From IMG/VR virus record IMGVR_UViG_3300046542_000332, positions 1 to 64,000 of that record: 64,000 nucleotides of DNA; one strand, 5' to 3'. The notes beneath the pieces were generated by a model that worked only from the letters and a program-made list of their open reading frames with translations, had not been told where the DNA came from and searched no databases. The position numbers and the translations under genes are program-made. This document shows positions 12,038 to 39,685 of this stretch, piece by piece (position 1 is the first letter of the stretch; each line of letters opens with the position of its first letter). Origin of the DNA: a virus.

Positions 12038-15000
12038 TTAGAAGGCGCCAGCGGTGGCCTTGAGCGCGTAGTCCCGGAAGGCATCCGAGGCTTCGATAAA
12101 CAGCTCGCTCAGCTTGTCCTCGCCATAGGCCGCATAGATCCGCTCAAGCTCCTTGAGTACGTCGCCAGGGCTGCCCAGGTCGGTGGTGCCGCCAATGATG
12201 CTGTCCAAGTAGGATTTGGCTTGCTGCAAGCTCTCGTCCTCGTCTGGCTCGGGTACCGGCTCAGGCTCAGGGGCGGGGGAGGCCGCCGGTTGGCTAAACA
12301 TGTCGGTCTGGTCGATGGCAAACAGTCCCTCGCCATACTCCTGCTCAAGTTTGCGGTTGGCCGCGCCCACAATGTCGGTGAAGCTGGCCGGCTCATCACC
12401 AAATAGGCCGGCGGTCTGCTTGCGGATGTTCTCGCTCTCGACGAACTGCGCCATGGCCTTGAACGCGGTGCTCATGCGTTTGGCGCTGCGGTTGTTGGCA
12501 CTGATGAACACGGCCATGGCTGCTACGGCCGGATCGGTACCGCCGAACATGTCGCCTTGGCGCAGGAATTCGTCCAGGCCCATGCCGGCCTCTTTGGCCT
12601 GGCGCAGCACGTTGGTAGCGCCAATGATGGCGTTTACCGCTTCCTGATTCAGCGACAGCTCCAGGGAGTCTGTCACCTGCTCGCCGGCCTTCTCGGCGCC
12701 CACCCGGTCCTGTTCCTTGGCCCGCATGAAGTCAGGCGCGGCGCTGTTCAAGGCCGAAACGATGTTGGCAATCTCAGGCTTGGCCTGGTCCGCCGTCATT
12801 TCCAGCAAGCGGTCATCGGAGTAGGCGCCAGCAAACAGCGCGGCCTGTAGACGGCTGATCAGGCCCGACGTCGGTTTGCCGTCGGTGGTCAGGTACTGCG
12901 CCGCCTCGGCATCGCCCAGCGATTGCAGGAAGGCCGCCACAAAGTCACGGTTTGCCGCGCTGTTGAGGTCGCCGTCTGCCAGCTTGGCCAGCATGGCGGT
13001 GTCCAGGCGCTTGGCATCGCTGCGGGCTTTCTCGGTGGCGGTCATCGCCAGCTTGTCGTCCTGGTTCGCTTCCACGGCGAACTCCACGCGGTTGATGGCG
13101 GTTTTACGGACACGAATCAGCACCGGGGCTTTCATGCGCTGGATCTTGGCCACGTCCACGCCGAAGTATTCCGCGTTTTCCACCAGCCACTCGCGGTATT
13201 CATCCGCCTGGCCGATACGGTAGGCCTCACGGATCGCCATGGCGCGGCCGTTGCCCGACTCGACCACACGGTCAGCGCCAACGATAGGCGCGCCGCTGTC
13301 AGCGCGCTGGGTGCGCCCCAGGCTGTCCGGATCGAGGTTGCGGGCGGTTTTCTGTACCCAGGCCTGCGAAGTGGTGCGCGCACGGTCACGCGGCTGGATT
13401 TCTGGCGGGTACTCCGGGTTTACCGTGCCGTCCGTCTCGTGACTGATGATCAGGTTCTTCGCCTCGATCACCTTGAAGCCGGTCACGACCTTGGAGCCCT
13501 TCGCGGTCTTGACGGTGTTGTCGCGGCCTTCGGCCTCTATAGTGCCAGTGTCTTCGTCAGCGCCTGTATCTGCGGACAACTTAGCTGCTGCGGCTGCCTG
13601 AGCGGCTTCCTCGGCACGCTCTGCCAGATGCGCGGCCAACATGGCCTCTTCTTCTGGCGTCTCAGGCGCCACGGTGGAGGCGGCCTTGATAGCTTTGGCA
13701 GCCTCGGCCGGGGCCACGCCATCGGCGTAGAGCTGTTTCACCAGGGTGTTTTGGCCCAAGGCTACCGAGTCGGCATCACCGGTGCTGATGTCCATCAGTT
13801 CCGCCAGCGCTTCCAGTACATCGCCTTCCCAATCCAGGTAAGACGGCTTGGCGCCGGCGGCAGCTGGCTCACTCACTTCTGGCCCGCGATAGCCGGTGTC
13901 CCATAGCTGTTTGGCCATGTCGACCACATCACGCGACAGGTTGCCGTAGAAAGCATCACCAACGGCCATTCCGGCCAGGCGAGCGCGAGCACCAGTCAGG
14001 GCTCCGATCAAGCGCTGTACCTTTTCCGGGTCCGCGAGTGCTGGAACGGCGAACGGGTCAACAACGCCAGACAGGTCGACCACCTCGCCTACTTTCGGAT
14101 CATACACGTCGGTATTGAGCAACTTCGTCATGTACTGGACGCCATCCTTGACCAGATACACGTTTTCGGAGCCGGTGCTGAGCACTACTGCCTCGCCAAG
14201 GGCTGCAATGTCGGCGTAGTCCTCCAGGATCACGCTCGCGGTGCTTACGGGCGTTACCGGATCAGCTACCGGCGCCGTCTCCACGACTGGGGCAAGGGCA
14301 GGCTCAGCAGCCACCGGTGCGGCCTTCTTCGCCTCAAGCTGTGCGGTCAGGTCGCTGATCTGTGCGTCCAGGCTGGCCAGCTCGCCGGTTTTGGCTTCTA
14401 CCAGCGCCTTTTGCTCATCGAGCGCGGCGGTGCGGGCGGCCTTGCCTTCGTTGGCCTTGATGAACTTTGCGCTGTTCTTCTGGATCAGCGCCATGATGCG
14501 GCGGGCGACGATACGCGGGTTGATGTCCTGGCCGCTCTCGGGCGCCACCACGGCGGTGATGTCCTTCTTGTTCTGTACCCACTTCCAGCTGATCAACTCG
14601 TCGGATGGCGTCAGCTTGTTGGGCGTGCTGTCCGGGTTGTGAAAGAACACCGACACGCTCTGGCCGTCATCCATGGCGAAGAGCATGGCCACTTGAGTGG
14701 TGCCCTTGCTCTTGAATGGCTTGCTCACTTCAACGGTGGCCGCTTGGACTTCACCGCCCACGTTCTGCATCACCTTGAGCAGCTGAGCGGCCTTGCGTTC
14801 AAACTGCTTGTACTCGATCACCATGGCATCGAGCATGGCGGCGTCGTCGGCCAGGTGCTCAGTGATGTCGGCCATGGTGGCGCTGTCCATCAGCAGGCCG
14901 TCTGGATCGGTTCGGCGCAGCTCATACAGCAAGGCGCCCACGGTCTGCCCTTCCGGGAGGTTGTCAGCGCCCCAGCGCGCGAATACATCAGTCATGCTCA

Positions 15001-15538
15001 GTGCCTCGTCTTTTGGGATGTTTGGTAGATCAGGGGAGAGGGGGCGGCTCAAATCCCCATGCTTGAGCCAGTGCTTGAATTGCTTGATGGTGCAGGCGGC
15101 GACACTGCCCAGGCCGGTCCAGCCCTTTTCATAGCTGTTCATGTACGCGGCGCAGGCCTGGTCCTGGTCGGTAAAGCCCAGCATTACCTTGTGCTCGTCG
15201 AACGTGCCGCCCTTGCCGTTCTGATTGATCACGTACACGCGCAGGCTTTCCGGCGCCGGTCCCACGAACACGTCTATCGCGTCACCGTCGGCGCCCTTGG
15301 TGCCGTTCACATAGCCGTAATGCGCCATGCAGGTGATCGACCACGGCTTACCGTCCTGCTTGCCCCGCCGGGACTGGAACATGGGGGTTTCGATGGTGAT
15401 GCGCAGGCCGTGCATGCGAAACGAGCCCTTGGCGTAGTTGCCGGCCCGGATCTGCGCGGGCGTGGGCTGTGCTGTCGAGCCCATGCCAAAAGCGCCGGCA
15501 TGCGCGGCGCTTTGGAGTTTGCTGAAAACGTCGGTCAT
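12038..15538 (-). CDS. Polyvalent protein: pyrophosphatase-like plus DdrB/ParB-like domains
   Basis: A 1166-residue protein. Residues ~33-160 match the InPase-like domain of polyvalent proteins (IETPMFQSRRG, AHYGYVNGTKGADGD, IDVFVGP, DEHKVMLGF). Residues ~260-350 form a second conserved block (VFFHNPDSTP, ISWKWVQNKKD). A coiled coil follows at ~366-405. Residues ~674-1050 resemble the P1 DdrB ParB-like domain, with VVESGNGRAMAIREAYR at ~758-774. The tail is Pro/Glu rich. The family is carried in virions or transferred by plasmids to act on entry; the exact activity is unproven. ATG at 15538 follows GGGAG at 7 bases. MTDVF occurs both at the start and again at ~182, so an internal start is possible. 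Confidence 0.75.
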   Translation of the reverse strand: MTDVFSKLQSAAHAGAFGMGSTAQPTPAQIRAGNYAKGSFRMHGLRITIETPMFQSRRGKQDGKPWSITCMAHYGYVNGTKGADGDAIDVFVGPAPESLRVYVINQNGKGGTFDEHKVMLGFTDQDQACAAYMNSYEKGWTGLGSVAACTIKQFKHWLKHGDLSRPLSPDLPNIPKDEALSMTDVFARWGADNLPEGQTVGALLYELRRTDPDGLLMDSATMADITEHLADDAAMLDAMVIEYKQFERKAAQLLKVMQNVGGEVQAATVEVSKPFKSKGTTQVAMLFAMDDGQSVSVFFHNPDSTPNKLTPSDELISWKWVQNKKDITAVVAPESGQDINPRIVARRIMALIQKNSAKFIKANEGKAARTAALDEQKALVEAKTGELASLDAQISDLTAQLEAKKAAPVAAEPALAPVVETAPVADPVTPVSTASVILEDYADIAALGEAVVLSTGSENVYLVKDGVQYMTKLLNTDVYDPKVGEVVDLSGVVDPFAVPALADPEKVQRLIGALTGARARLAGMAVGDAFYGNLSRDVVDMAKQLWDTGYRGPEVSEPAAAGAKPSYLDWEGDVLEALAELMDISTGDADSVALGQNTLVKQLYADGVAPAEAAKAIKAASTVAPETPEEEAMLAAHLAERAEEAAQAAAAAKLSADTGADEDTGTIEAEGRDNTVKTAKGSKVVTGFKVIEAKNLIISHETDGTVNPEYPPEIQPRDRARTTSQAWVQKTARNLDPDSLGRTQRADSGAPIVGADRVVESGNGRAMAIREAYRIGQADEYREWLVENAEYFGVDVAKIQRMKAPVLIRVRKTAINRVEFAVEANQDDKLAMTATEKARSDAKRLDTAMLAKLADGDLNSAANRDFVAAFLQSLGDAEAAQYLTTDGKPTSGLISRLQAALFAGAYSDDRLLEMTADQAKPEIANIVSALNSAAPDFMRAKEQDRVGAEKAGEQVTDSLELSLNQEAVNAIIGATNVLRQAKEAGMGLDEFLRQGDMFGGTDPAVAAMAVFISANNRSAKRMSTAFKAMAQFVESENIRKQTAGLFGDEPASFTDIVGAANRKLEQEYGEGLFAIDQTDMFSQPAASPAPEPEPVPEPDEDESLQQAKSYLDSIIGGTTDLGSPGDVLKELERIYAAYGEDKLSELFIEASDAFRDYALKATAGAF

Positions 15539-15660: not shown

Positions 15661-15912
15661 TTAGAACTCTGGTTTTGGTGTCTCGTCGATCAGCACGCCG
15701 ACGACATCAGAAATCGAGCAGCCTTTGGCGATGGCCAGTAGGCGCAGCTTTTTCTTCTGATCCGGCGTCACGTAGCTGTTTAGCCGCTCTTTGGCGCCCA
15801 GCTTGATCACCTTAGGTGCTGGCTTGGCGGGCGCACGACCTGCCGCCGCTTCCACGTCTGCCAGGATGTCCTCCACCGGGCGGGCGCGCTGCTTGATTTT
15901 CAATTCACTCAT
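15661..15912 (-). CDS. Ribbon-helix-helix partition partner (ParG-like)
   Basis: An 83-residue basic protein. The flexible N-terminus (1-40) is rich in Lys, Ala and Pro; residues ~44-80 form a ribbon-helix-helix: strand LNSYVTP, helix DQKKKLRLLAIAKG, turn, helix SISDVVGVLIDE. This matches small ParG/CopG-type centromere-binding proteins that follow a short ParA. It lies 71 bases after parA in the same direction. It probably binds the repeats upstream of parA and stimulates its ATPase. An XRE-free antitoxin is the alternative, but the parA neighbour argues against it. Confidence 0.75.
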   Translation of the reverse strand: MSELKIKQRARPVEDILADVEAAAGRAPAKPAPKVIKLGAKERLNSYVTPDQKKKLRLLAIAKGCSISDVVGVLIDETPKPEF

Positions 15913-15930
15913 AAGTCACCTGCCTGTTTA

Positions 15931-15975
15931 ACGTTACGGCGTTTCGCGCATCATAGTGCATCTGACACCTTAACG
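15931..15975. promoter_or_regulatory. Operator-like sequences between partition genes
   Basis: ACGTTACGGCG and TGACACCTTAACG occur in the 71-base gap between parA and its partner gene. The second is repeated exactly upstream of the terminase large subunit near 48752. Possible regulatory site; the regulator is unknown. Confidence 0.35.
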
Positions 15976-15983
15976 TCTATTCA

Positions 15984-16619
15984 CTACGCCAACAGCGCCA
16001 GCACTTCGTCACGCAGCGCGCGTAACTCACGGGCGGCCAAGCCATTGGGTTGGGTATCGAGCGGGGTTTGCCCGGTCAGCTGCGCGTTCGGGTGTGCGGT
16101 ACGCGCCACGAGGCGCGATTGCAGCACCGGGAAGCCGTAGCCCGCCAGCGTCTTGGCAATGCTCTTGCTCAGTTTCGAGTTACCGAGGGCACGATTCACC
16201 ACGAAATACGCTCTCAGCGTCTGGCCGGTGCCTTCCAGCTCGTCCATGCGGTCTTGGATCATAGCCACGATGTCGCTGGTGGCCCACACGTCCAGCGGCG
16301 ACGGCGTGACCGGGATAATGACGATATCGGCCACGGCAATCGTTTTCTTGGCCAAGTCGGCGGCCTTCGCGGTGCCGTCGATGATCACGATGTCGTTGGT
16401 CAGGCGCGGGATCTGCGAAGCCAGCTGAGTGCTGGCGATGGTGTAGAGCGTTACCGGCTGATTCTCGTTCTCCCCGGCACAGTCCTGCATGCTGCCCTGA
16501 GGGTCGGAGTCGACCAGTGCCACGTCGCGGCCATACAGGTGCAGCGCTTGCGACAGCCCAAGGCAGATAGTCGTCTTGCCCACGCCACCCTTTCCGTTCA
16601 ACACCGCCAAAACTGTCAT
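15984..16619 (-). CDS. parA: ParA-family partition ATPase
   Basis: A 211-residue protein, the length of short (type Ib, ParF-like) ParA proteins that lack an N-terminal DNA-binding domain. Residues 10-17 are the deviant Walker A KGGVGKTT; SDPQGS follows at ~40; IVIIDG at ~83 is Walker B-like; VVNRA and the TPL.TQPNG region are typical of the family. It forms nucleoid-bound filaments or gradients that move plasmid copies to daughter cells. ATG at 16619 gives the usual family start (MTVLAVLNGKGG); an in-frame TTG at 16637 is less likely. With the downstream ribbon-helix-helix gene it forms a partition locus, which points to plasmid maintenance of the prophage. Confidence 0.9.
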   Translation of the reverse strand: MTVLAVLNGKGGVGKTTICLGLSQALHLYGRDVALVDSDPQGSMQDCAGENENQPVTLYTIASTQLASQIPRLTNDIVIIDGTAKAADLAKKTIAVADIVIIPVTPSPLDVWATSDIVAMIQDRMDELEGTGQTLRAYFVVNRALGNSKLSKSIAKTLAGYGFPVLQSRLVARTAHPNAQLTGQTPLDTQPNGLAARELRALRDEVLALLA

Positions 16620-16655
16620 GTCCTGCGCTCCATCCAATTGAGTATGGTGCGGATT

Positions 16656-16725
16656 CTAGCGCTATCACGCTATAACGCAATAGGGTTGTCGCGCTATGAC
16701 GCCTTGGCGCTAATGCGCTACAGTG
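16656..16725. repeat. Candidate partition site/operator: GCGCTA repeats
   Basis: Upstream of parA, the unit (G/A)CGCTA occurs at 16659, 16667, 16691, 16707 and 16715, the last two 8 bases apart. Arrays like this are bound by ParG-type proteins as operator and centromere in related plasmids. That this one is the centromere is inference. The same GCGCT core recurs in other gaps of this window. Confidence 0.55.
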
Positions 16726-16737
16726 TTTATGCAGACG

Positions 16738-16765
16738 TAAAAAAGCCCCGGCTGGCGGGGCTCTT
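16738..16765 (-). terminator. Terminator after small membrane protein gene
   Basis: GCCCCG/CGGGGC stem, 5-base loop and T-run on the minus strand, past the stop at 16782. It insulates the partition promoter region. Confidence 0.8.
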
Positions 16766-16781
16766 GTGGATGACGGGATGA

Positions 16782-17012
16782 CTAGCGAATGGTGTTGAGC
16801 GCCAGCGTTTCCAGCGGCGCCGGGCAATGAACGGACGGATCAGGCGGCCATACCCCCTCACTGATCATCTGGCACTTCCATTCGTGATCTACCACGGCTT
16901 GATCGTAATCACTGCCACCCAGCAGGCTTACCAAAAACAGATACAGCGCAACCATCAGCAAACAGCCGACCCAAATGGCCTGGCGTTGACGCTTAAGATT
17001 TCTAGCTCTCAT
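16782..17012 (-). CDS. Small single-pass membrane protein
   Basis: A 76-residue protein. A strongly basic N-terminus (RARNLKRQRQ) is followed by one membrane segment at ~13-32 (IWVGCLLMVALYLFLVSLLG) and an acidic periplasmic-side tail with two Cys (WKCQM, VHCPAP). ATG at 17012 follows AAGGA at 9 bases. Topology N-in is predicted from the positive-inside rule. Function unknown; superinfection exclusion is one possibility for a lysogenic membrane protein, without evidence. Confidence 0.7.
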   Translation of the reverse strand: MRARNLKRQRQAIWVGCLLMVALYLFLVSLLGGSDYDQAVVDHEWKCQMISEGVWPPDPSVHCPAPLETLALNTIR

Positions 17013-17130
17013 CGGTCTTGTCCTTTCTCTGGCGTTTGTCGAAAGCCTCGACGAAAAAGACATTATCATTTGATTGTTCTATCTGTAAACATCACTACAT
17101 CAATTTTATGTTTTATATGGAGAAATGCGC

Positions 17131-17613
17131 ATGTCAGAAGCACCGGCAGGAATGAAAATCATGGTGTCCATAGGTGGCTACGGCGCCGCTGGGGCTGAGC
17201 CTATCACCCTGGTAGCGTTCAAAAGTAACGCCTTGGGCACTCTGACTGTTTTGCAGAAGGTAACGTATAGGGAGATTGCAGACGAAGGCTTTGCCTTTGT
17301 GACGAACCTTCGCCTAAAGGACTATGACTGCCTGTTCAAGGAGGAACACTTGGCGGACGCAATCACCGCGTACAAGGAGGCCGAAGGTATGGGCACGATC
17401 ATGCTGGCCGACGACGTAGCCCGCTGGCGCCCCCGGATCGAATCGGATGGTGTAGACACGCAGGGACAGAAATACCGCCTGGCGGCGGATATCGGAAACG
17501 CAGAGGTGGCGATACTGGCGCTGGCGCACTTCATGTCACGCCAACGCGGTATCGAGTCACTGGGGCGAATGACTGACGACATCGCCCGGCTGTATCAAAT
17601 CACGTCGATTTAA
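17131..17613 (+). CDS. Unknown protein, lone plus-strand gene
   Basis: A 160-residue protein starting MSEAPAGMKIMVSIGGYGAA; GGAG lies 8 bases before the ATG at 17131 (another ATG at 17125 is in frame). It is soluble, mixed alpha/beta, with no motif I recognise. It is divergent from the membrane-protein gene, sharing an AT-rich promoter gap (about 17013-17125), and its stop overlaps the stop of the convergent minus-strand gene by 4 bases. Independent transcription during lysogeny (a moron-type gene) is plausible but inferred. Confidence 0.75.
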   Translation: MSEAPAGMKIMVSIGGYGAAGAEPITLVAFKSNALGTLTVLQKVTYREIADEGFAFVTNLRLKDYDCLFKEEHLADAITAYKEAEGMGTIMLADDVARWRPRIESDGVDTQGQKYRLAADIGNAEVAILALAHFMSRQRGIESLGRMTDDIARLYQITSI

Positions 17614-18806
17614 TCCTCAGCGGCAAAGGGCTCGCCGTAGGCATCAAAGCCAGCGTCTTCCAGGGCGGCGCGGCCCTTGTCGGTCAACATGTAAAGGCCC
17701 TCGGCTGTCTCGACCATGCCCAGCGCCAGCAGCTGCGCCAGCGCATCCTGGTCCTTGATATCGCTCTCGTCCGCCGCCGACACAATGGCGATGTTCACCA
17801 GCTCCGATAGGCCCGAGTCCCCGAAGTCAGGCGACACGCTGTCGAGCATGGCAATGGCGGTGATAAAGGACTTGGCCAGGCTGCGCTCAAGTTGGGCCTG
17901 GTCGTGATTGCCTTCCGCCTCATTGATCGGTGCATTCGTTTCGACCACGTTCAAGGCCTGGCGCAGCTGCTCGATGGCGCCAGCGGTGGCCAGGCTGTCC
18001 AGCATCGCCGGATCGGCCAGAACAATCTCACGCGCAGCCACGTAGGCGCCGGCAATGCCCAGCTCTTCGACTTGTGGTGACTCGATACCATCCAGCAGCG
18101 AATCAGCTACCGGGACGGCGCCGTCAATAAGCGTCCACGCACCCGGCAATTCGCCATGCTCATCGGCTGGCACCAGCTTGAACTGATCGAAGTTGTACAG
18201 CTTGCCTCCCCACTTGCGCGGGAATCCCTTCGGCTGCCCATTGATCGCATCGAGCAATGCAGCGGCTTTGGCGGCTTCGTCCAGCTCGGCTGTGCTCAGC
18301 GGCTCCAGGCTGTCGGTCATGGCGCCCAGCTGCTGCTGTAGGTCCGCTACCGTGGCGCGGCGCTCGGCAATCTGCGTATCCAGCTGCGCCACGCGCTCGG
18401 CGTACACCGCCGTCTGTTTCGGCGCCGGCGTGCTCATACCCTTGGGCAGGACAATCGCCTTGCGGGCCTGAGCCTTCTGGAACGCTACCTGACCCTTTTC
18501 CAGCAGACCGGCAATCTCCTGCACGGCCTTATCCGAATCGGTCTGATTCTTGAGCGGTACCACCGAATTGTTGATCAGCACCTGGAAGATGTCGCCGGTC
18601 GCGTTCACGCGCAGCACGACAACCTGCCCACTGGCCACCGTCAACGAGGCTTCGCGGTAGGTGATGCCAGACGTGCGCTTTGCGGCCTGGTTGAATTCAG
18701 ACGACACCACGGGCTGGCCCGCGCGGATCATGATCGTGCTGACTTTCTTGAGCGCCTTGGCGGCGGCCTGAGCGTTGGAAAAATCGAGCGTGTTCGTTGC
18801 TGGCAT
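17610..18806 (-). CDS. DarA-like polyvalent protein
   Basis: A 398-residue protein. Residues ~15-115 resemble the N-terminal domain of P1 DarA-type and other polyvalent proteins: an N-terminal helix, then RTSGITYREASLTVASGQ, VVLRVNATGDIFQVLINN and AVQEIAGLLEKGQVAFQKAQ. A coiled coil follows at ~140-170. Later residues form helical segments, and the last ~50 (LLALGMVETAEGLYMLTDKG) look like a winged-helix hairpin. ATG at 18806 has GGGGG at 5 bases; ATG at 18818 is an alternative. Likely virion-carried or lysogenic defence-countering factor; the family assignment is from motif memory. Confidence 0.6.
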   Translation of the reverse strand: MPATNTLDFSNAQAAAKALKKVSTIMIRAGQPVVSSEFNQAAKRTSGITYREASLTVASGQVVVLRVNATGDIFQVLINNSVVPLKNQTDSDKAVQEIAGLLEKGQVAFQKAQARKAIVLPKGMSTPAPKQTAVYAERVAQLDTQIAERRATVADLQQQLGAMTDSLEPLSTAELDEAAKAAALLDAINGQPKGFPRKWGGKLYNFDQFKLVPADEHGELPGAWTLIDGAVPVADSLLDGIESPQVEELGIAGAYVAAREIVLADPAMLDSLATAGAIEQLRQALNVVETNAPINEAEGNHDQAQLERSLAKSFITAIAMLDSVSPDFGDSGLSELVNIAIVSAADESDIKDQDALAQLLALGMVETAEGLYMLTDKGRAALEDAGFDAYGEPFAAED

Positions 18807-18897
18807 GACTGCCCCCATGGATTGGATTTACTGGGGACATTGTGAGGGCGCGAAAGGGCATGGCTCGGGCTGGCTTTGCGCGGGAAATGGGTCACAA

Positions 18898-18959
18898 GTG
18901 AGCTAGGGGTAGCTCATCTGTGCTCGCTAACGATCAGGCGTGACCTACCCCTAGCTCAC
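18898..18959. repeat. Perfect 15-base inverted repeat
   Basis: GTGAGCTAGGGGTAG at 18898-18912 and its exact reverse complement at 18945-18959, with a 32-base spacer. The left arm also forms its own small hairpin GAGCTA-GGGG-TAGCTC (18900-18915). Could be an operator pair, an RNA stem or an origin element. Confidence 0.8.
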
Positions 18960-18965
18960 CCACCC

Positions 18966-19049
18966 GCAAGCCGGTTGGGCGCGGGTGACTAGCGCCGGCG
19001 CCAGCCAAGTCTGTCACCCGTGAACAACTGGCCGCCGCCGGCAGGCGAC
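18966..19049. repeat. Long direct repeat, copy 1
   Basis: Starts GCAAGCCGGTT and ends with GCAGGCGAC. Shares AGCCGGTT, CGGGTGA, AGTCTGTCACCCGTG and CAACTGGCCGCCGCCGGC with copy 2 at 19202-19284, 236 bases away. Internally it has CGGGTGA and TCACCCG as inverted arms, so each copy can form a stem. Confidence 0.75.
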
Positions 19050-19122
19050 TTTTGCCATTATTTACACCCTTAATATAATAGAAGGGGAGAGCCTTACAGG
19101 CCGTGGCCTGGAGAGGTTTTTT

Positions 19123-19186
19123 GTACCGTCCAGAGAGTACGCCGCGTACCGTCCAGAGAGTACAAGTCGTACCGCCTAGACGGTAC
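19123..19186. repeat. Three tandem 18-base GTAC units
   Basis: GTACCGTCCAGAGAGTAC at 19123-19140 and, identical, at 19146-19163, then the variant GTACCGCCTAGACGGTAC at 19169-19186, which is an almost perfect palindrome. Start-to-start spacing is exactly 23 bases each time. Such spacing suggests a multi-site binding array for one dimeric protein. Confidence 0.8.
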
Positions 19187-19201
19187 ATCGAGACAAAACA
19201 A

Positions 19202-19284
19202 GCAAGCCGGTTGCCCACGGGTGATTAGCAAAGGCGAAGCCCAGTCTGTCACCCGTGGGCAACTGGCCGCCGCCGGCGGGCGAT
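19202..19284. repeat. Long direct repeat, copy 2
   Basis: Partner of the repeat at 18966-19049. Keeps the CGGGTGAT...TCACCCGTG inverted arms and CAACTGGCCGCCGCCGGC, and differs mainly in the middle. Co-variation of the arms between copies (GGGCGCGGGTGA versus GCCCACGGGTGA) hints at structure but is too short to prove it. Confidence 0.75.
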
Positions 19285-19365
19285 GCTGGGCCTATCGCGG
19301 TGGGTCAGTAGATCATTAGAAGGCAGAATTTTCCGACCCTTTAAAACCGGGCCTCTCAGCGAGGG

Positions 19366-19480
19366 GGTTCGTTCATCCAGGTGAACGAACCCCTGTTCAC
19401 TCAGATGAACGAACCCCCCACCTAAAAACGCCATCAAAAGAACGAGGTTCGTTCATCCAGGTGAACGAACCCCTGTTCAT
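19366..19480. repeat. Iteron-like palindromes upstream of Rep-like gene
   Basis: A 34-base segment at 19366-19399 is repeated exactly at 19446-19479. Each copy begins with the palindrome GGTTCGTTCA-6-TGAACGAACC. A third, half-matched copy (TGTTCA-6-TGAACGAACC) is at 19394-19415. Another copy lies after the gene (20144-20168). Flanking a small Rep-like gene, these are the best candidates for Rep binding sites (iterons and autoregulatory operator). Confidence 0.75.
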
Positions 19481-19541
19481 CCGTGAGCTGTAGCGCTACC
19501 ATCTGCGACAGATACAGAACACAAAGGAGTGCTTACGGAAC

Positions 19542-20087
19542 ATGAAACCTCAAAAGCTTCATCAGCCAGCGAACCGTGGTACTTGGGTTCAAACCGAGCG
19601 GGCTGGCCACAAGGCTTGGGCGGCCTTGATAAACAGCCACCCAAAGGCCGGACAACTTCTGCACGTCCTGATCGCCCACATGGACGAAAAGGCCGCACTG
19701 GTCGCCAGTCACAAACTGTTATCAGAGTTGTGCGGGGTATCAGTTATGACCATTCGGCGATCCCTGGCGGTGCTAACTGAGCAGAACTTTGTCCAGACTG
19801 TGCGTCTTGGGGGCGAGCGCGGCGGTGTGCTCGCGTACATCGTCAATTCCCGCATAGCGTGGGCCGACTCCCGCGACAATCTCAAGTACGCGGCATTCAG
19901 CGCCCGTGTGCTGGTCACGTCGTCGGAACAAACCGAACCACTGGAAGGGGAGGAACTGCATCGGCTTCCGCTTATGTCACCGGGAGAGCATCAGCTACCC
20001 CACGGACTAGAGCCGCTTGACGGGCCGGAAGATCTTCCAGACCTGCCAGCCATACACCGAGGCGAGCAAATGAAGCTTATCTCTTAG
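19542..20087 (+). CDS. Probable plasmid replication initiator (RepL/winged-helix type)
   Basis: A 181-residue protein. Residues ~25-105 form a winged helix: HPKAGQLLHVLIAHMDEKAA, then SHKLLSELCGVSVMTIRRSL, AVLTEQNFVQTVR and a GERGG wing. The layout resembles small plasmid replication proteins that recruit host machinery to iterons. The C-terminal ~60 residues are acidic and Pro-rich. AAAGGAG lies 14 bases before ATG at 19542. The gene is flanked on both sides by GAACGAAC palindromes. A MarR/GntR-like regulator is the alternative; the iterons favour Rep. Confidence 0.65.
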   Translation: MKPQKLHQPANRGTWVQTERAGHKAWAALINSHPKAGQLLHVLIAHMDEKAALVASHKLLSELCGVSVMTIRRSLAVLTEQNFVQTVRLGGERGGVLAYIVNSRIAWADSRDNLKYAAFSARVLVTSSEQTEPLEGEELHRLPLMSPGEHQLPHGLEPLDGPEDLPDLPAIHRGEQMKLIS

Positions 20088-20143
20088 TTGGCGCGTTCCG
20101 TATCTGACTCCGCTTGTTCCGTATCACGCCCCGAATGAACGAG

Positions 20144-20168
20144 GGTTCGTTCATCTGAGTGAACGACC
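20144..20168. repeat. Iteron-like palindrome after Rep-like gene
   Basis: GGTTCGTTCA-6-TGAACGACC, the same element as in 19366-19480 with one arm change. A further TGAACGAG half-site precedes it. It lies between the convergent rep and baseplate spike genes. Confidence 0.7.
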
Positions 20169-20179: not shown

Positions 20180-20701
20180 TCAGGGAATCGGCCCGCTGAC
20201 CGGGCCAGACGGTGCACTAGGGTGCTTGTGGGTTTGCAGGCCAATGCCGTCACTGGTGATGTCGCCACCGGTCTGAGTGACCGGACCTTGCACCTTGTGC
20301 GCAGCTGCAATGCTGGCAATCTCGGCACCGGTGAGCTTGATCGATGTCCCGCCCACTATGAGGTTGATCGCCTCCCCGGCATTGATCGTAAACACGCTGT
20401 CGGCATTTAGCTCAAAGTTGTCGTGATTCCAGCGGCGGGTGCCCACCACGTTGCCGGTGTTCGGGTTACGAAAGCCGGTGATGAGCGGCCGGCGCGGATC
20501 GCCCGCCAGGAACTCAATGTACACCTCGCGCCCCACGACCAGCCGAATCTCAGTGTCCCGCGAGTCATCACCAATCGGATACTCGATTTCAGCGATAGGC
20601 AGCTCGCTGGCGCCATCGGTGAAGGGCGGTATCTCTACGCGAACTTCGCGGCGGTCCCGATCCACTGCCCGGATGAATCCAGGGTATTTGTTACTGGGCA
20701 T
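20180..20701 (-). CDS. Baseplate spike protein (gpV/gp5-like)
   Basis: A 173-residue protein with the OB-fold start of tail spikes (YPGFIRAVDRDRREVRVEIP, then VGREVYIEFLAGDPRRPLI), a beta-helical part (FELNADSVFTINAGEAINLI) and a tip with THKHP, where the HxH motif normally holds the apical iron ion. Length fits P2 gpV-type spikes. The protein caps the tail tube and pierces the outer membrane. ATG at 20701 overlaps the hub gene by 11 bases; it is the last gene of the baseplate operon. Confidence 0.85.
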   Translation of the reverse strand: MPSNKYPGFIRAVDRDRREVRVEIPPFTDGASELPIAEIEYPIGDDSRDTEIRLVVGREVYIEFLAGDPRRPLITGFRNPNTGNVVGTRRWNHDNFELNADSVFTINAGEAINLIVGGTSIKLTGAEIASIAAAHKVQGPVTQTGGDITSDGIGLQTHKHPSAPSGPVSGPIP

Positions 20702-27207: not shown

Positions 27208-27999
27208 CTAAAGGAGGGCATCCATGACGACAGGAATACCGTTGAACACCACCGAGGTATCGCCCATCACCACAAAGGTATGTTTCGGGAAACGCTCAGG
27301 CGGCCTGACGCGCTGGCGGCGGCTGTAGAACAGATTGGTACCGCCCGACAGCATGGCCGCGCCCATCGTCATGCGTGCCTGGATGATCGGCGGCACAAAC
27401 TGGGCGTTACCCCTGGCGCGCCCCACCGATACGCCGCGCCCGATGTAGCCTATGGGGATGGTGAGGCGTGAGCGCTGGGCTGCGCGCAGCTCCAGGACAA
27501 ACCGCGCCGCCACGGCCGTGCGGGCGGCCTTGAGGATCCGCGCCGGGACAATCTGCGTCTCGATGTCCACGCGCAGGCGGCTGGTCAGGAAGTAGTCCGC
27601 CTCATTCTCGCCGGCCGCGCGGATCTCGGCCTCAGTCATGACGTCTACCGGGTACTCGCCGGCCTTCTTGCACCACAGCTGATCGATGGTGAACACCGGA
27701 CCAAACAGGGTTTTGAGATAGGCGGCCAGAAACGTGGTGCCGCGCTGGGGGTTGCGGTAGCGCCAGGCATGGAACAGATGGCGGATCTGTTCCATGGTGG
27801 TAGTGCGCAGGACGGCCAGGCCATCGCCGACCAAGCTTCGCTCAACGAGGGAGTCCGGGCCGATATGCGGCATGCCGTACAGCCCCACCTCAGTGACCTG
27901 ATCGTCGATGTGCTGCTTGTACAGGCTCAGAAACAGCGCCTTGAGTTCGCTTTCTACCTCATCGAACTCGGCACTGCGGACAAGGGGCTTTAACTCCAT
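27208..27999 (-). CDS. Baseplate protein following J-like wedge
   Basis: A 263-residue protein. Its position directly after the J-like protein matches gpI/gp53-type baseplate proteins. Helical first half (FRHLFHAWR-like segments around 75) and a beta-rich second half with SRLTIPIGYIGRGVSVG. ATG at 27999, 2 bases from the upstream stop, so it is coupled. Exact homologue not recognised. Confidence 0.65.
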   Translation of the reverse strand: MELKPLVRSAEFDEVESELKALFLSLYKQHIDDQVTEVGLYGMPHIGPDSLVERSLVGDGLAVLRTTTMEQIRHLFHAWRYRNPQRGTTFLAAYLKTLFGPVFTIDQLWCKKAGEYPVDVMTEAEIRAAGENEADYFLTSRLRVDIETQIVPARILKAARTAVAARFVLELRAAQRSRLTIPIGYIGRGVSVGRARGNAQFVPPIIQARMTMGAAMLSGGTNLFYSRRQRVRPPERFPKHTFVVMGDTSVVFNGIPVVMDALL

Positions 28000-28001
28000 G
28001 A

Positions 28002-29396
28002 TTAACCCGCCTCTTGCAGGAGGACTTGCAGGCTGTCGGCGGTGATGTAGCGGTATTGCTCAGGCAGTGGTGTGTCATCGTCCCCGATGCTGTTGACGAT
28101 CATGTTGCCCAGGCGCGACGACAAGGCCGTCACGGCGTTGTCTCTCATCAGCCGGTAAACATCCTTCTCCAGAATCTGCGCCTCGCCGCGCTTGGCCCAC
28201 GCTGATTCAGGACCGTACTCATTGAGCAGGATGGTGCGCACTTGCTGCGTGACGGCGCCGGCCTCATACACCGACGGGATGGTCAGCGTCACCACCATGG
28301 GCACCACGACATCGACAACCGGCACGTATTTGATCTTGTAGCTGTCGTCGGCGCGGCGAATCACCGCCGTTATCTGCGATTCCAAAACTGCTTGCGTGGT
28401 CCCGGCCTTGCGTACCGCCACGAACAGCGTGTTGATGTTGTCCAGGCTCGGGCCGCGTACAGCTTCCTCTTTGGCTTCGTTCCAGATGCTGAGGAACGTC
28501 ACCGGGGATATGGCCTTGCGCACCACAAAATCGAAGTTAGAGCCAAAGACGGCGCTGTCGTCGTAAATGCCGGGGTAGGAACACACCTCGCGCATGGTCG
28601 AGATATCCATGGGGTCGGCGCCGGTCTGGCTGACTTCGAACAGCTCCATGGCCAGCAGCGCGTCAGCGGCGCCACCGGTGTACTCAAAATAGAACTTGAG
28701 GCCAGCAGCCAGCGCCACAGCGCCCTCAGTGTCCTGCACCGTGACCGCGATCTGCTCGCCCACGGCCGGTTGATAGCCCGACAGCCCGTCGATGCCGAAT
28801 TGCAGGCTCAGCTCACCGGTTTCGTCCGACTTGATGTTGTAAACGCGCTCCCCGTCTTCGATGTTGGCGAAGTCGGTTGAGTATTCAAACCCGTCGACCA
28901 GCACGGCCGCGATAAATCCCACCTCGGGCTGACTCAGCGGCACCGAGTAAAACGGGCGATAGGTCGCCACCTGGCGGGTGAAAATGCGGGAGCTGACTTG
29001 CTTGGCGGTCAGATAGCCAATGGCGCCGGCGGCCAGGGTCACGCCAGTGGTCACCAGCCAATAGCGCCCGGCGGCATCTTGTAGCGATCTGCCGGCCGCC
29101 ACCTGCACCGTCACCAGTGACGCGTTGGTCACCTTGATCGCAGCAATGGAAGGCGTACCGAACGGCAAAATGCCTTTGACCGCCGCGTCACTGCGTACTG
29201 TCACGTCGCGGGCCATGGTGAACGGCTCGCCGGCGGTGACTTCCACCTGGTTGCTCACGTCCGCCAGCATGGCCGCCATGGATCCCAGGCTTTGAATAAT
29301 CAGTGGGTCGCCAATCTGATAGCGCAGGGCAATCGTGGGGTAGCTGGCAATCTCATCGACCGCGCTTTGCACGAATTCTGTTTTAGTAACTGCCAC
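28002..29396 (-). CDS. Baseplate wedge protein (J/gp6-like)
   Basis: A 464-residue protein with the outline of baseplate J proteins: N-terminal helices that mention IGDPLIIQSLGSMAAMLAD, a repeated beta core, and a C-terminal domain with PMVVTLTIPSVYEAGAV and QILEKDVYRLMRDNAV. In contractile tails this protein forms the iris that triggers sheath contraction. GTG at 29396 (GGGGGA upstream) overlaps the preceding gene by 14 bases. A weaker option is a P1 BplA-type baseplate protein, which has the same role. Confidence 0.75.
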   Translation of the reverse strand: MAVTKTEFVQSAVDEIASYPTIALRYQIGDPLIIQSLGSMAAMLADVSNQVEVTAGEPFTMARDVTVRSDAAVKGILPFGTPSIAAIKVTNASLVTVQVAAGRSLQDAAGRYWLVTTGVTLAAGAIGYLTAKQVSSRIFTRQVATYRPFYSVPLSQPEVGFIAAVLVDGFEYSTDFANIEDGERVYNIKSDETGELSLQFGIDGLSGYQPAVGEQIAVTVQDTEGAVALAAGLKFYFEYTGGAADALLAMELFEVSQTGADPMDISTMREVCSYPGIYDDSAVFGSNFDFVVRKAISPVTFLSIWNEAKEEAVRGPSLDNINTLFVAVRKAGTTQAVLESQITAVIRRADDSYKIKYVPVVDVVVPMVVTLTIPSVYEAGAVTQQVRTILLNEYGPESAWAKRGEAQILEKDVYRLMRDNAVTALSSRLGNMIVNSIGDDDTPLPEQYRYITADSLQVLLQEAG

Positions 29397-29703
29397 GGTT
29401 CACGTCCCCCAGGTCCGCCAGACTCACGTAGGAGCCGTTAATTTCGATATAGATGGTCTTGCGGTCGAGCCCATCATTGGTCGTGTACATGTTGATGGTG
29501 CCCGGTGGCAGGGAGGCGATAACGGGAATGTCCTCTCGCATCTTGGCCAGGTAGGCGTCAGCAATGGGCGAGCTGAGGGGTTTCTGTAGCAAGTCCTCAG
29601 TCGGCGCCCCATAGGTCGAGCCGTAATAGGTGTACGGCCGGGTACCCACCCAATGCGCAATCATGCGAAAGAGCAGGTCCGTGTTTAGCGTGTCGTCAGC
29701 CAT
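29383..29703 (-). CDS. Small unknown tail/baseplate protein
   Basis: A 106-residue protein rich in Tyr (YTYYGSTYG, MYTTNDGL). It lies between the GH19 protein and the J-like wedge, and overlaps the latter by 14 bases. Size and place resemble gp25/gpW-type baseplate proteins, but I see no diagnostic motif. Confidence 0.65.
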   Translation of the reverse strand: MADDTLNTDLLFRMIAHWVGTRPYTYYGSTYGAPTEDLLQKPLSSPIADAYLAKMREDIPVIASLPPGTINMYTTNDGLDRKTIYIEINGSYVSLADLGDVNRGSY

Positions 29704-29743
29704 AAGGCACCGGTAGCGGTTTATTGATCACATGATGGCAAAC

Positions 29744-29770
29744 AAAAACCGCCCAATAAGTGGGCGGTTT
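29744..29770 (-). terminator. Terminator after the GH19 protein gene
   Basis: AACCGCCCA/TGGGCGGTT stem of 9 base pairs with a T-run on the minus strand. It separates the head operon from the baseplate operon. Confidence 0.85.
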
Positions 29771-33070: not shown

Positions 33071-34675
33071 TCACTCTTCCTCGTCTTTATCTGGCTTGCC
33101 GCCTGGTGGTGGTAACTGGAGCGGATCGGTGTCATCACCGCCGCCGAATCCCCCACCACCCATGTCAGGCGCAGGCGGTTTTGCATCCTTGATGCCCTGG
33201 GCGAAAATCTTCGCCTTCTCGGCGTCTACCTCCATCATCGTGGCCATGAATTCTTCCATCATGGGCGCTGGCAGCCCCATGTTGCGCATCATGTCCATAC
33301 CCTGGAGCAGCATCACGCCGCCACTGATCGCGCGTTCTCGGCTGGCCTGTTTCTCGGCCTCAAGCGCGGCAATCGAACCGAAGAAATTCACGTCATAGGG
33401 GCGCTCATCGTCCGCCCAGCATTTGCCGGTCTTGGCCAGCATGTGACGATCGATCGTATCGTTCACCGTCTGCATAAAGGCGGTGCGGATGATCCGGGAA
33501 CGCTCGGCGGCTTGGCTGCTGGTGCGGTTAAACCCGCCCTCACCCAACCCCCCCGCCATCTGGTCGGCAAAGCCCACCATGGACAGGTCAATGCCCAAGG
33601 TGCCCGCCAGCTTGCGCGCGCAAAACATCACGTCTTCGATGTTGGCGCCGGCGCCGGAATTGGAGCTGCCATTGAACGAGGTGATCGCGGTCAGCTGCTT
33701 TTCGTTGAAGGTCGGCATGATGTGGAAATTGCGCGACGTGGCGTATTGGCCCGTCCTCACCGCTTCCTCTGCGCGCGTCTTCATGCTCTTGAGCATCTTT
33801 TCCAGCGAGTCCATGAACAGCTTCTGTTGGGCGGCTGTCATGTCCGACAGGTTGGCGCCCAGCATCGTCTCGTCAATCGATCCGGTGATGCGCTGGCCGA
33901 TCATCCCGCGCAGGGCAGAAATTAGGTTGTCATAGTCAACCTCGGCCGCTTCCAGGAACGAACCACCCACCAGCGCCGGCAATGGCCGAAAATCGCGTGG
34001 ATCTTTGGCTTCCATGTTGATCTTTTGGGCGTTCTCGATGGCGCGCATCTGCGGCAGGTACACCATGCGCGGCATGCGCATACGCACCATGTCCAGATGG
34101 TTGAAGCGGCTTTGCATCTTCGGCCCTTTACTGACGATGTAACCCACCGTCTGGCCAACCTCTTCATAGGCCTGCACCAAAGGGGCGAAAGGTTCCTCGC
34201 TGTCGAAGGCAAACATTCCCTCGTTCTTTTTGGTGTAGAGCCTGGCGTAGGCGTCCCCGAAGGCGCACGCAGTGAAGCACATCCCATGCGCGTGCTTGTT
34301 GAGGATCTTGGCGATAAATTGCAGCTCATCGACCAGCTTTTTATCGGCCGCCGAAATACCGGGCTTGGGCTCGATAAAGATCGTTTCCCCGGTCGTCTCG
34401 TGGCCGCCCAGCGCCATCTGGACGTGCAGCCTCAGGATGGTGCTGATCAGCCCGTCCTGAATCATGTAGTGCCACTTCTGATAGATCGCCGACCGGGAGC
34501 GCGCCGGGCGATCGCTCGACCCCAGCAGCATTTCAACGCCAACGTAGTCGGCGTCAAACGTGCTGATACCTTCCATTCGGTTTTCGGGCGCCGTGCTCAC
34601 CTCGCCCAGCAAAAGCTTGGCATGGCCGCTAAGCGACCCCAGCCAGCTCTTTTTCGGTTTCTTTTCGTCGGCCAT
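33071..34675 (-). CDS. Portal protein
   Basis: A 534-residue protein with portal features: basic start, core with RSRSAIYQKWHYMIQDGLIS (start of the stem region), a long central alpha/beta region, crown helices around 430-500, and an acidic Gly/Pro-rich tail ending DKDEEE. It forms the dodecameric DNA gate at one head vertex and contacts terminase. First in the head operon; the protease gene follows 3 bases after. P1-like portals have similar length. ATG at 34675. Confidence 0.8.
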   Translation of the reverse strand: MADEKKPKKSWLGSLSGHAKLLLGEVSTAPENRMEGISTFDADYVGVEMLLGSSDRPARSRSAIYQKWHYMIQDGLISTILRLHVQMALGGHETTGETIFIEPKPGISAADKKLVDELQFIAKILNKHAHGMCFTACAFGDAYARLYTKKNEGMFAFDSEEPFAPLVQAYEEVGQTVGYIVSKGPKMQSRFNHLDMVRMRMPRMVYLPQMRAIENAQKINMEAKDPRDFRPLPALVGGSFLEAAEVDYDNLISALRGMIGQRITGSIDETMLGANLSDMTAAQQKLFMDSLEKMLKSMKTRAEEAVRTGQYATSRNFHIMPTFNEKQLTAITSFNGSSNSGAGANIEDVMFCARKLAGTLGIDLSMVGFADQMAGGLGEGGFNRTSSQAAERSRIIRTAFMQTVNDTIDRHMLAKTGKCWADDERPYDVNFFGSIAALEAEKQASRERAISGGVMLLQGMDMMRNMGLPAPMMEEFMATMMEVDAEKAKIFAQGIKDAKPPAPDMGGGGFGGGDDTDPLQLPPPGGKPDKDEEE

Positions 34676-34772
34676 TGTCTGTACGTACGCAGTAGTCCCA
34701 TTTACCGGTCAGCGTACAGGCGGTTTTGAGCCCTTCCGGACGGCGCTTTGCACCATCTGGAGGGCGTGCGCG

Positions 34773-35282
34773 TTAGGGTTCCAGGTCAGCGGTGACGACC
34801 TCATCAGGGCGCGGATTGACCAGGTACTTGCGGGTGTATGGCGATATGTTCACGCTACCGGTGACGTCGACGATCTCGTAATTGATGATCAGGCCGTCAC
34901 CCATCAGCAAGGCCACCAGCATGCGCTTGGCGGGCTGCACGTAGCCGGCGGCACCAGGCTCAAGGATTGGCTCGATGGACGCCTCTGTCACCCCTTCGGC
35001 GTAGTCCAGGCGCGCCCCGTTGTCGGCGGTGTTGCCCAGCGGCGCCGCATAGCCTTGAGCAAAGTGGATCTTGGCGTCACACGCATACACCCACGAGTAA
35101 TTCACCTCGTCCTCATCGCTGATCACGCCCACGCCCCCCAGGTCGGGATAGCCGTCAACGCTGGCGCCCTCCGACACCCGGTCGACCTGCTTGGTGAACA
35201 GCACACAGTCGATGGCGTTTGGCTCGCGTAGCGTGCGCTGGCGGTTGGCCCGGTTGATCTGTATTGCGACGTTGTTGAGCAT
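34773..35282 (-). CDS. Unknown structural-region protein
   Basis: A 169-residue beta-rich acidic protein. It lies between the portal and a cluster of small structural-type genes. No motif recognised. A head-tail joining or neck role is possible by position. ATG at 35282, 3 bases from the preceding stop. The 97 bases between it and the portal gene hold no other gene that I can see. Confidence 0.65.
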   Translation of the reverse strand: MLNNVAIQINRANRQRTLREPNAIDCVLFTKQVDRVSEGASVDGYPDLGGVGVISDEDEVNYSWVYACDAKIHFAQGYAAPLGNTADNGARLDYAEGVTEASIEPILEPGAAGYVQPAKRMLVALLMGDGLIINYEIVDVTGSVNISPYTRKYLVNPRPDEVVTADLEP

Positions 35283-35285
35283 GTC

Positions 35286-36356
35286 TTAACCCTGTGCGTT
35301 GTCGGCGGCGGTGATGGCGATACGGGCGGCCTGTTCGGAGTAGCCCAGCTTCATCATGGCCTTGATTTTCTTGTCCAGCGGCACCGGCTTGTTGACCTTC
35401 GCCGCGTGCGTTTTGCGCAACTGATCGTTCGCCGCCTTGACCTTGGCCGCCTCGACGGCTTTGCGCTGCTGTGCGGGCTGCGCGGCACGCTCCAGGCGCT
35501 TCTCTTCGGTGGTCTTGATCGTGCGGTCCCGCTTGCGGACGCTGGCGGCCTTGTCGAGGAACGCCTGCTGCTCTTTGACGGTCATCACCTGCTGTTTGCC
35601 GCTCAGCGTCTTGCGTCCGTACTCGATCATGCGTTGGGCGAAGTTGTTGAACGTCCCGCTATGCCCCAGCGTGCCCATCACCTTGACGACGTGCTTGCAG
35701 GCCACCCCGTACAGCTTGGGGTTGCGGATACGCGGGAAACCGTCCTCGGCCCGGCCATAGTTGAAGTTGCCAATGCTGGCGATGAACCGAAACCAGAAGG
35801 TGTGACGGTTGCAGCTGCAATCGTATTTGACCTTACCGCGCGCCAGCAGCTTTGCCGCCTCGTGCGCCGGCTGGCCACCCGACAGCGCCGCGTCGTAGGC
35901 GAGGAACTGCACCATCACCGTATGGCGCGCGACGTTGGAGTTTGGCCCGGAGTTGGTCTGAAACTGCACCACGCCGCCCCGGTTGACGATCGGCATCACC
36001 GAATGGATTTGCCGGTTGGCGCGCTCCCTGTCCTGCGGCGTGGACAGGTCGATCACCTTCTTGACCAGGATCCCGCCAGACGCCTGCTTGCTGTGCTGGC
36101 CGTGCATGCGCTGAATGTCTTTGACGGCAGCCTTAAACGCCAGGATGTCGTCAAAGGTGAGCATGCGGGGCTTGCCGTCAATCGTGGTGAACAGCGCCCG
36201 CTTCGGATCGTACAGGCCGCCCATGTCGTCGGCCGACAGAATCCGGTCCTGGTCGCCAAGCCGGCGCTTTAGATCGAACTCAAACGCCTCGCGGGCCTCC
36301 TTGGCGGCCTTGCGCGCATCCTGTACCAGATTCGACCGCTGATCATTGGCCGCCAT
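35286..36356 (-). CDS. Phage protein with SWIM-like zinc motif
   Basis: A 356-residue basic protein. Residues ~180-230 contain YDCSCNRHTFWFRFIAS and VACKHVVKVM, a CxC...CxH arrangement like SWIM zinc fingers found in large phage structural-region proteins. The last 120 residues are Lys/Ala-rich and helical. It overlaps the upstream gene as TGATG, so they are coupled. Probably DNA- or protein-binding and virion-related, by place only. Confidence 0.7.
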   Translation of the reverse strand: MAANDQRSNLVQDARKAAKEAREAFEFDLKRRLGDQDRILSADDMGGLYDPKRALFTTIDGKPRMLTFDDILAFKAAVKDIQRMHGQHSKQASGGILVKKVIDLSTPQDRERANRQIHSVMPIVNRGGVVQFQTNSGPNSNVARHTVMVQFLAYDAALSGGQPAHEAAKLLARGKVKYDCSCNRHTFWFRFIASIGNFNYGRAEDGFPRIRNPKLYGVACKHVVKVMGTLGHSGTFNNFAQRMIEYGRKTLSGKQQVMTVKEQQAFLDKAASVRKRDRTIKTTEEKRLERAAQPAQQRKAVEAAKVKAANDQLRKTHAAKVNKPVPLDKKIKAMMKLGYSEQAARIAITAADNAQG

Positions 36357-36652
36357 CAACGAACCGTCCTAACAGCCGTCGTGATCCCGCACCGCTCCTT
36401 GAGATAGCGCAGATACGCCACCGTAGGCAGCACAAGATCCTGCTCCTTGAGCGGCGCGTCGACATTGGGTAGACCAGCAGCGGCCAGGATCACGCGCGTC
36501 TCTGTCGGATCACCAAAGGCCCGCCGCGCCACCGCCGACAGATTGTGTCGGTCAGCGGGTAGCGTGCGGATCACCTGGCAGTTGGCGGAATAGCTCGGCT
36601 CAGTGGTGGCGAACCGGCGCACCTCGCGATAAAACCGTGACTCTTCGATCAT
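36356..36652 (-). CDS. Small LysM-like protein
   Basis: A 98-residue protein. ADRHNLSAVARRAFGDPTET then AGLPNVDAPLKEQDLVLPTV fits the LysM layout (iA.r.yGd ... L..Gd.L.lP), as in tail protein X and other baseplate proteins. ATG at 36652 is preceded by GGGGTGG; ATG at 36664 is in frame. It is the first gene of the portal-side operon. Confidence 0.6.
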   Translation of the reverse strand: MIEESRFYREVRRFATTEPSYSANCQVIRTLPADRHNLSAVARRAFGDPTETRVILAAAGLPNVDAPLKEQDLVLPTVAYLRYLKERCGITTAVRTVR

Positions 36653-36809
36653 GTCCCACCCCATGGAATGCTAGGGCGGTAGTGTCACATGCAGGGAAAG
36701 GGGGGAGAGATTCCGGGTTTGCACGCCCGCCGCGCAGGGCGAAAGTCTAAGTTTTACAGGGTAATTTGGACGTAATGACCAATCGATTTAGACAAGCGCG
36801 CGGCGGGGT

Positions 36810-37034: not shown

Positions 37035-37143
37035 ACATCTCACCCTGAATTAAACGCCATGCACCTATAAGATTTATTCAGCATACCACAAGGTTGATCA
37101 GCGCTATGCGGCCGGTGCTCTGGCGTTTCTTCCAGACAAAAAG

Positions 37144-37164
37144 AAGCCCGCACAGGGCGGGCTT
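37144..37164 (-). terminator. Terminator after pectate-lyase-type tailspike
   Basis: AAGCCCGC/GCGGGCTT stem with a T-run on the minus strand (TTCTTTTTG), past the stop at 37245. Confidence 0.85.
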
Positions 37165-39668: not shown

Positions 39669-39685
39669 GCTGCCTCCACGGTGCT

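Follow-up and report, generated by a model that had tools for sequence, protein, structure and literature searches.

The virus record IMGVR_UViG_3300046542_000332 (84,719 bp; G000 in our comparisons), of which the first 64 kb form the stretch of DNA analyzed here (the window), is with high probability a phage-plasmid endowed with an IncP-9-type replicon and a ParF-type partition module. Very probably, it is a P1-like temperate myophage that infects Pseudomonas-type bacteria and persists as a plasmid during lysogeny. A complete set of virion and packaging genes is accompanied by genes for plasmid replication and for partition, the record is circular by sequence, and relatives are seen in an extrachromosomal circular state in four isolates. 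An initial annotation of the window had already proposed a phage-plasmid in a Pseudomonas-like host, and this proposal is now well supported by the circular record and by the separate replicons of those four Pseudomonas isolates. It had missed both the IncP-9-type nature of the Rep region and the exchange of replicons between sister phages, and its argument from a missing integrase does not hold (see below).

Circular form and extrachromosomal relatives

The two ends of the record overlap by 176 bp (positions 1 to 176 and 84544 to 84719), identical but for one mismatch and including an exact stretch of 127 bp. A predicted gene crosses the join (from 84431 of the record to 436 on the other side) and matches a gene that is uninterrupted in the Pseudomonas plasmid pKF715C. 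The overlapping ends and the gene spanning them indicate a complete circular genome of ~84.5 kb, the outcome sought by the circularity check that the initial annotation had proposed; 114 genes were called on it. Exact 127-bp end repeats also occur in the relatives G001, G002, G004, G006, and G016, each elsewhere in the shared gene order, and therefore such repeats are a trace left by the assembler from circular or permuted molecules and do not mark a fixed phage terminus.

A terminase search retrieved 18 close viral-contig records, two of which are pKF715C and the DR133 plasmid again, along with the DR133 and SM1 plasmids themselves. A terminase scan of genome contigs returned no relative, and an integrase scan recovered Pseudomonas azerbaijanoccidentalis SWRI74 (G017), in which the element is the 82,730-bp contig C6, whose ends map to adjacent bases of the relative G012 and so give an exact full circle. 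Fifteen members were compared in full, namely, this record, ten viral records, and the four isolates, and 12 of them are circular by annotation, end overlap, or an exact full circle. In all four isolates, the colinear relative is a separate replicon: plasmid pKF715C of P. putida KF715 (NZ_AP015032.1; 94,696 bp, circular) is colinear with the record nearly the whole way round, the P. fluorescens DR133 plasmid is a circular record, and the P. atacamensis SM1 plasmid has a record of its own whose ends overlap by 77 bp.

The pKF715C, DR133, and SM1 plasmids share with this record a colinear phage genome, a PacB-type terminase, a ParA module, and an orthologous integrase at the same locus. They differ from it in their ParA and in lacking the long proteins at 37 to 42.7 kb, which are unique to this record; further, pKF715C and SM1 carry an RPA-type RepA at another locus, and the Rep of DR133 is of the IncP-9 type and is encoded at a third locus, distinct from both that of pKF715C/SM1 and that of this record. 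Additionally, pKF715C has a Tn3-family mercury resistance transposon among its tail genes (33857 to 43408), an instance of cargo in a phage-plasmid that may have damaged virion genes. The only literature that we found naming pKF715C is its genome announcement (subscription journals were outside our coverage).

Phage genes and kinship with P1

Scans with PHROG and Pfam profiles revealed a portal, a PacB-type large terminase, a small terminase, a sheath, a PmgG-like head protein, tail fibers, endolysin-like and antirestriction proteins, baseplate components, and a GDSL-lipase tailspike-like protein. These scans and the comparison with P1 bear out the terminase, portal, capsid, baseplate, and tailspike genes named in the initial annotation. 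All on the minus strand are a major capsid protein similar to P1 gp23 (450 to 2135), a P1 DdrB-like protein combining DdrB, DarA-N, and pyrophosphatase domains (12038 to 15538), the portal (33071 to 34675), the large terminase (47146 to 48711), which shows 35% identity to P1 PacB and 77% to its pKF715C counterpart, and the small terminase subunit (51617 to 52702). Outside the window, the record encodes an O-like replication initiator (68823 to 69695), which is a candidate for lytic replication in parallel to P1 RepL.

The comparison of gene content with P1 (Punavirus; NC_005856) that had been suggested yielded 18 homologous genes by tblastn, mostly at 21 to 42% identity, including those for PacB, SSB (70%), the portal, gp22, gp23, RdgC/HrdC, Ref, DdrB, and Hdf. 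P1 also resembles the proposed state of this phage in its plasmid lysogeny and in having distinct initiators for plasmid and lytic replication. In the same tblastn comparison of the genes of this genome with P1, no homologue of P1 RepA, ParA/ParB, Cre, or Phd/Doc was found, and in their place this record has, unlike P1, an IncP-9-type replicon, a ParF/ParG-type partition module, and an arm-type integrase instead of Cre. As these P1 counterparts were not found, the record is best classified as a distant relative of P1 and not as a Punavirus. A near-DNA search of the phage collection gave no match.

An IncP-9-type replicon on a phage genome

The Rep-like gene that the initial annotation had placed between iteron-like palindromes indeed lies between such sites. 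It encodes a 181-aa protein (19542 to 20087, plus strand) and is preceded by iteron-like GTTCGTTCATCCAGGTGAACGAAC dyads at 19364 to 19393, 19395 to 19416, and 19446 to 19471, which are presumed Rep binding sites, and followed by a further GTTC-type dyad at 20135 to 20164. The protein is 50% identical to the Rep of pWW0, 54% to that of NAH7, both of which are IncP-9 plasmids (PMC2885752), and 75% to a protein of pAd12, and its relatives occur on 203 plasmid records. In the DNA upstream of rep, which aligns with the IncP-9 oriV, the elements follow each other as they do there: first a hairpin as found at the res end (19202 to 19283), next a conserved AGATCAT-AGAAGG block (AGATCATTAGAAGG..CCTTTAAAACCGGGCCTCTCAGCG; 19300 to 19363) aligned with pWW0, NAH7, pAd12, and pPL2, and then the dyads. 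On the basis of the Rep homology and the oriV elements in the same order, rep and the 340 bp upstream of it can be identified as an IncP-9-type oriV-rep unit, a firmer identity than "Rep-like," and the origin of the replicon appears to have been taken over from an IncP-9-like plasmid.

The match to the replicons of pWW0 and NAH7 extends to the order of hairpin, block, dyad array, and rep, with the difference that the main dyads here are of the GTTCATC type and those in pWW0/NAH7 are of the GAGCTA type. In contrast to IncP-9 plasmids, the replicon is phage borne and comes without res, the IncP-9 ParA/ParB, or conjugation genes. The differing dyads suggest that this element may be compatible with IncP-9 plasmids, and hence we use the label "IncP-9-type." An AlphaFold2 (AF2) model of Rep is winged helix-like and of low confidence. 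Rfam matches at the dyads are to microRNA models far below the gathering scores and were dismissed as chance matches to palindromes. In the literature, we found no report of an IncP-9 replicon on a phage-plasmid (again with subscription journals outside our coverage), and the single paper that mentions both is a review of plasmids from 2015. A phage that carries an origin of this type connects its lineage to catabolic and resistance plasmids. A distant relative of this Rep (29%) is encoded by the 32-kb Burkholderia phage FLC5 (LC528882.1; 30344 to 30757), which is possibly another phage living as a plasmid.

Exchange of replicons at a fixed slot

The replicon sits in a slot between an Hdf/DarA-N-like antirestriction gene on its left (17610 to 18818, minus strand) and a V-type baseplate spike gene on its right (20180 to 20701, minus strand). 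The same slot holds an RPA RepA in G001, G002, and G005. In G003, it is occupied by a Rep_3 initiator accompanied by seven TGACCCTGAATCACTCCACAT iterons, of which the first five are spaced 21 to 23 bp apart, and in G004 by a RepL-like protein together with four dyads of the GTACCGTCCAGACGGTAC type. A second replicon locus, which adjoins the homologue of 17161 to 17613, is of the IncP-9 type in DR133 and G012 and of the RPA type in G016 and SWRI74. The clearest case is the pair formed by G012 and SWRI74, which are 91 to 96% identical over most of their length and differ exactly at this second locus. Thus, initiators unrelated to one another occur in sister phages whose virions are nearly the same, and the replicon appears to be an exchangeable cassette at a fixed slot. 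Replicon type disagrees in the sister pairs G000/G005, G002/G004, G012/G017, and G016/DR133, and a tree of six backbone proteins, small with its 14 scored tips (the G007 genome being incomplete), calls for at least five changes of replicon type, no fewer than with shuffled labels.

Beside its presumed working array, this record retains sites of other replicon types, which are apparent remnants of earlier replicons. Two GAGCTACCCCTAGCTC-type dyads (18900 to 18915 and 18942 to 18957) are of the pWW0 oriV type and recur in the IncP-9-type replicons of DR133, G012, pPVG22, and pGLE121P1, and single or paired GAGCTA dyads likewise persist beside the RPA replicons in G002 and G016. Three degenerate GTACCGTCCAGACGGTAC dyads (19123 to 19186; GTACCGTC) are of the type found upstream of the RepL-like initiator in G004. 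We set aside the idea that the GAGCTA dyads are a general backbone operator, as they occur only in G000, G002, G016, G012, and DR133 among the 15 members. The border hairpin between res and oriV of IncP-9 plasmids is present in two copies, and the first of these (18966 to 19048) is also found in the RepL-type relative G004, whereas the second sits in the IncP-9 order; this suggests recombination at the hairpin element.

Replicase and partition genes were noted earlier to be absent from the genes that P1-like elements have in common, and it has been guessed that they are exchanged to avoid incompatibility (PMC10879196). Such exchange is now visible at a fixed locus between close genomes with nearly identical virions, together with candidate remnants, which makes this idea directly testable. 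A tentative synthesis, to which we would give slightly less than an even chance, is that a fast-exchanging replicon is selected to differ between near-identical phages as an escape from incompatibility, is captured from host plasmids at shared oriV-border sequences, and leaves orphan initiator-binding sites behind, with a conserved arm-type recombinase keeping the circles monomeric. Incompatibility as the selective cause is much less certain than the phage-plasmid nature of the element.

The partition module

The initial annotation was right about a short ParA with a repeat array upstream of it. The ParA gene (15984 to 16619, minus strand; an alternative TTG start gives 16637) encodes a short protein without an N-terminal helix-turn-helix (HTH), as is characteristic of type Ib, and among proteins of solved structure it is closest to ParF of TP228 (PDB 4dzz; E value of 6.6e-20 over residues 1 to 208). 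Directly upstream lie eight 8-bp units with the consensus TAGCGYNA (16657 to 16720), which we presume to be a centromere or operator. Their identity at a lag of 8 bp is 0.61 versus a shuffle mean of 0.40, with none of 300 shuffles doing as well; a plain hexamer count of the array was not significant. Six relatives retain such an array, with an altered unit in the more distant ones (TAGCGYNA-like in this record, GAGTTTTA in G003, and GCGnnnGC-like in G007), and in each of the seven genomes tested, 0 of 300 shuffles matched the observed 8-bp periodicity. Persistence of the array while its unit changes would fit a centromere coevolving with its binding protein.

Downstream of parA is a gene for an 83-aa protein (15661 to 15912, minus strand) that is coinherited with parA in G001 to G005 and is a candidate for a ParG-like partner. 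Of the ribbon-helix-helix (RHH) partner claimed earlier, the gene itself and an RHH-like motif (RLNSYVTPDQKKKLRLLAIAKGCSISDVVGVLID), read by eye, stand; searches of family libraries did not confirm the RHH identity, and the AF2 model is poor, with a predicted local distance difference test (pLDDT) score of 57. A PDB profile match of this protein to an engineered protein was judged meaningless. The module is like the TP228 ParF-ParG system in its short ParA, its small, presumably DNA-binding partner downstream, and its upstream repeats, and unlike it in having eight 8-bp repeats and a partner that sequence searches do not recognize.

The conserved integrase and alternative interpretations

The earlier statement that no integrase is visible is true of the window; the same record, outside the window, encodes an arm-type tyrosine integrase (74624 to 75835) with Arm-DNA-bind_3, Phage_int_M, and Phage_integrase domains. 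All 14 near-complete relatives have an orthologue at the same locus (55 to 93% identity), and residues R236, K263, H321, R324, H348, and Y358 are invariant in 14 aligned sequences. The initial annotation had held that an integrase elsewhere in the element would refute plasmid maintenance. That rule proves too strict: the enzyme is no argument against plasmid life because the pKF715C, DR133, and SM1 plasmids stand alone with the same gene. Phage-plasmids have been described as typically lacking integrases (PMC12977533); this group departs from that description, whose "typically" does not exclude it from the phage-plasmids. The conserved gene bears both on the use of integrase lack as a descriptor of phage-plasmids and on automatic annotation in which the presence of an integrase is taken to prove insertion into the chromosome. 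We provisionally regard as new the swappable replicon slot with its leftover sites and the intact, conserved integrase in a group of phages that apparently live as plasmids.

As for what this enzyme does, multimer resolution is favored over chromosomal integration, and either role is much less certain than the phage-plasmid nature of the element. The more probable proposal, somewhat likelier than not, is that the recombinase is a dedicated multimer resolution enzyme equivalent to Cre, with the dyad that lies 5' to the gene as its site, as suggested by the constant locus of the gene in all near-complete members, by the single adjoining dyad in each genome (CGGGGA-N7-TCCCCG, CGCGGA-N7-TCCGCG, or a near copy), by the matched change from CGGGGA/TCCCCG to CGCGGA/TCCGCG in one clade, and by the precedent of P1, where Cre adjoins lox. 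P1 Cre is, however, shorter and lacks the arm domain seen here, a hallmark of integrases, and the dyad in this record has one mismatch. A dual lifestyle, with integrase-driven insertion into the chromosome in some hosts and maintenance as a plasmid by rep and par in others, accounts for the arm-binding, core, and catalytic domains, the six invariant catalytic residues, and the attP-like arrangement of a single-copy dyad with conserved repeats upstream of the gene, and it also fits the integrated state of a distant relative (G144; see below). We nonetheless consider it unlikely. All 15 members are separate records, most of them circular, and in two partly overlapping samples of about 400 genomes each, drawn from the genus and family of SWRI74 (Pseudomonas and Pseudomonadaceae), no close member was found in a chromosome; hence, the att and integrase check urged earlier found the integrase and no chromosomal copy bounded by attL/attR. 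Exact matches of the SWRI74 chromosome to the flanks of int are at most 18 bp, and the best E value is 0.08, so that no shared att site stands out above noise. No convincing tRNA 3' end was recognized upstream of the gene, the sole T-arm-like string near it being an isolated one on the minus strand of DR133. Similar recombinases are also carried by many ordinary plasmids.

Several points weigh against the phage-plasmid interpretation as a whole. That this individual phage is maintained as a plasmid is deduced from its relatives, a conserved and complete integrase is usual for integrating phages, and the RHH-like character of the ParA partner comes from inspection by eye. In addition, the distant P1-like relative G144 is integrated beside tRNA-Leu(caa) (C3, about 196 to 270 kb). 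It has a different integrase, and no ParA was found in the stretch of it that was read. Its occurrence shows that a chromosomal lifestyle exists within the same wider group, and it equally shows that the survey of genome samples can detect integrated copies. The other distant relative that the samples yielded, G520, lies on an 89.5-kb contig with a ParA. That the Rep-like protein is a transcription regulator and no initiator would fit the HTH folds that alone score above the Pfam cutoff and the additional RepA carried by both pAd12 and pPL2. This is very unlikely in view of its kinship with the pWW0 and NAH7 proteins and the ordered oriV elements; moreover, the gene takes the place of RPA or Rep_3 in related phages, and on the small plasmids pPVG22 (5.0 kb) and pGLE121P1 (6.9 kb), its homologue is the apparent sole Rep candidate, as the other proteins tested from these two plasmids have no recognizable Rep domain. 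The composite repeats and the lack of a near DNA match among known phages might suggest that phage and plasmid sequences were joined into a chimera during assembly, a notion that is largely refuted already and highly improbable, for colinear relatives from independent samples and isolates have par and rep at corresponding loci.

A model for the phage-plasmid life cycle

Returning to the phage-plasmid interpretation, we propose that in the lysogen, the IncP-9-type initiator would bind the oriV dyads (within about 19202 to 19471) and fire replication, and the ParF-like ATPase and its small RHH-like partner would segregate the copies via the octad array, to which we infer that the partner binds. 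In the lytic cycle, the O-like initiator would probably take over, and the PacB-type terminase would package headfuls. The integrase would most likely use the dyad that precedes its gene to resolve multimers in the manner of P1 Cre-lox. The replicon cassette, with its RPA, Rep_3, RepL-like, and IncP-9-type versions at the same place, is probably swapped by recombination with resident plasmids, and such swapping would allow related phages to coexist without incompatibility.

Other features of the record

No tRNA gene was found in the window or in positions 63001 to 82000 of the record. At 37245 to 42659, two long proteins of 807 and 935 aa are encoded, the second with a C-terminal GDSL lipase domain; they occupy the RepA position of pKF715C and SM1 and are unmatched in all 14 relatives compared. 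A 37-kDa nucleoid-associated protein (YejK/NdpA; 44583 to 45599) is kept in about half of the compared relatives. In the SM1 plasmid, the annotation of the large terminase (27468 to 29744) includes a Hint (intein/homing endonuclease) domain. Adjoining the terminase in this record is a protein (48782 to 49471) weakly similar to the N-terminal half of that terminase, and in SWRI74, two partial terminase-like genes of this kind are found in the neighborhood of the terminase.

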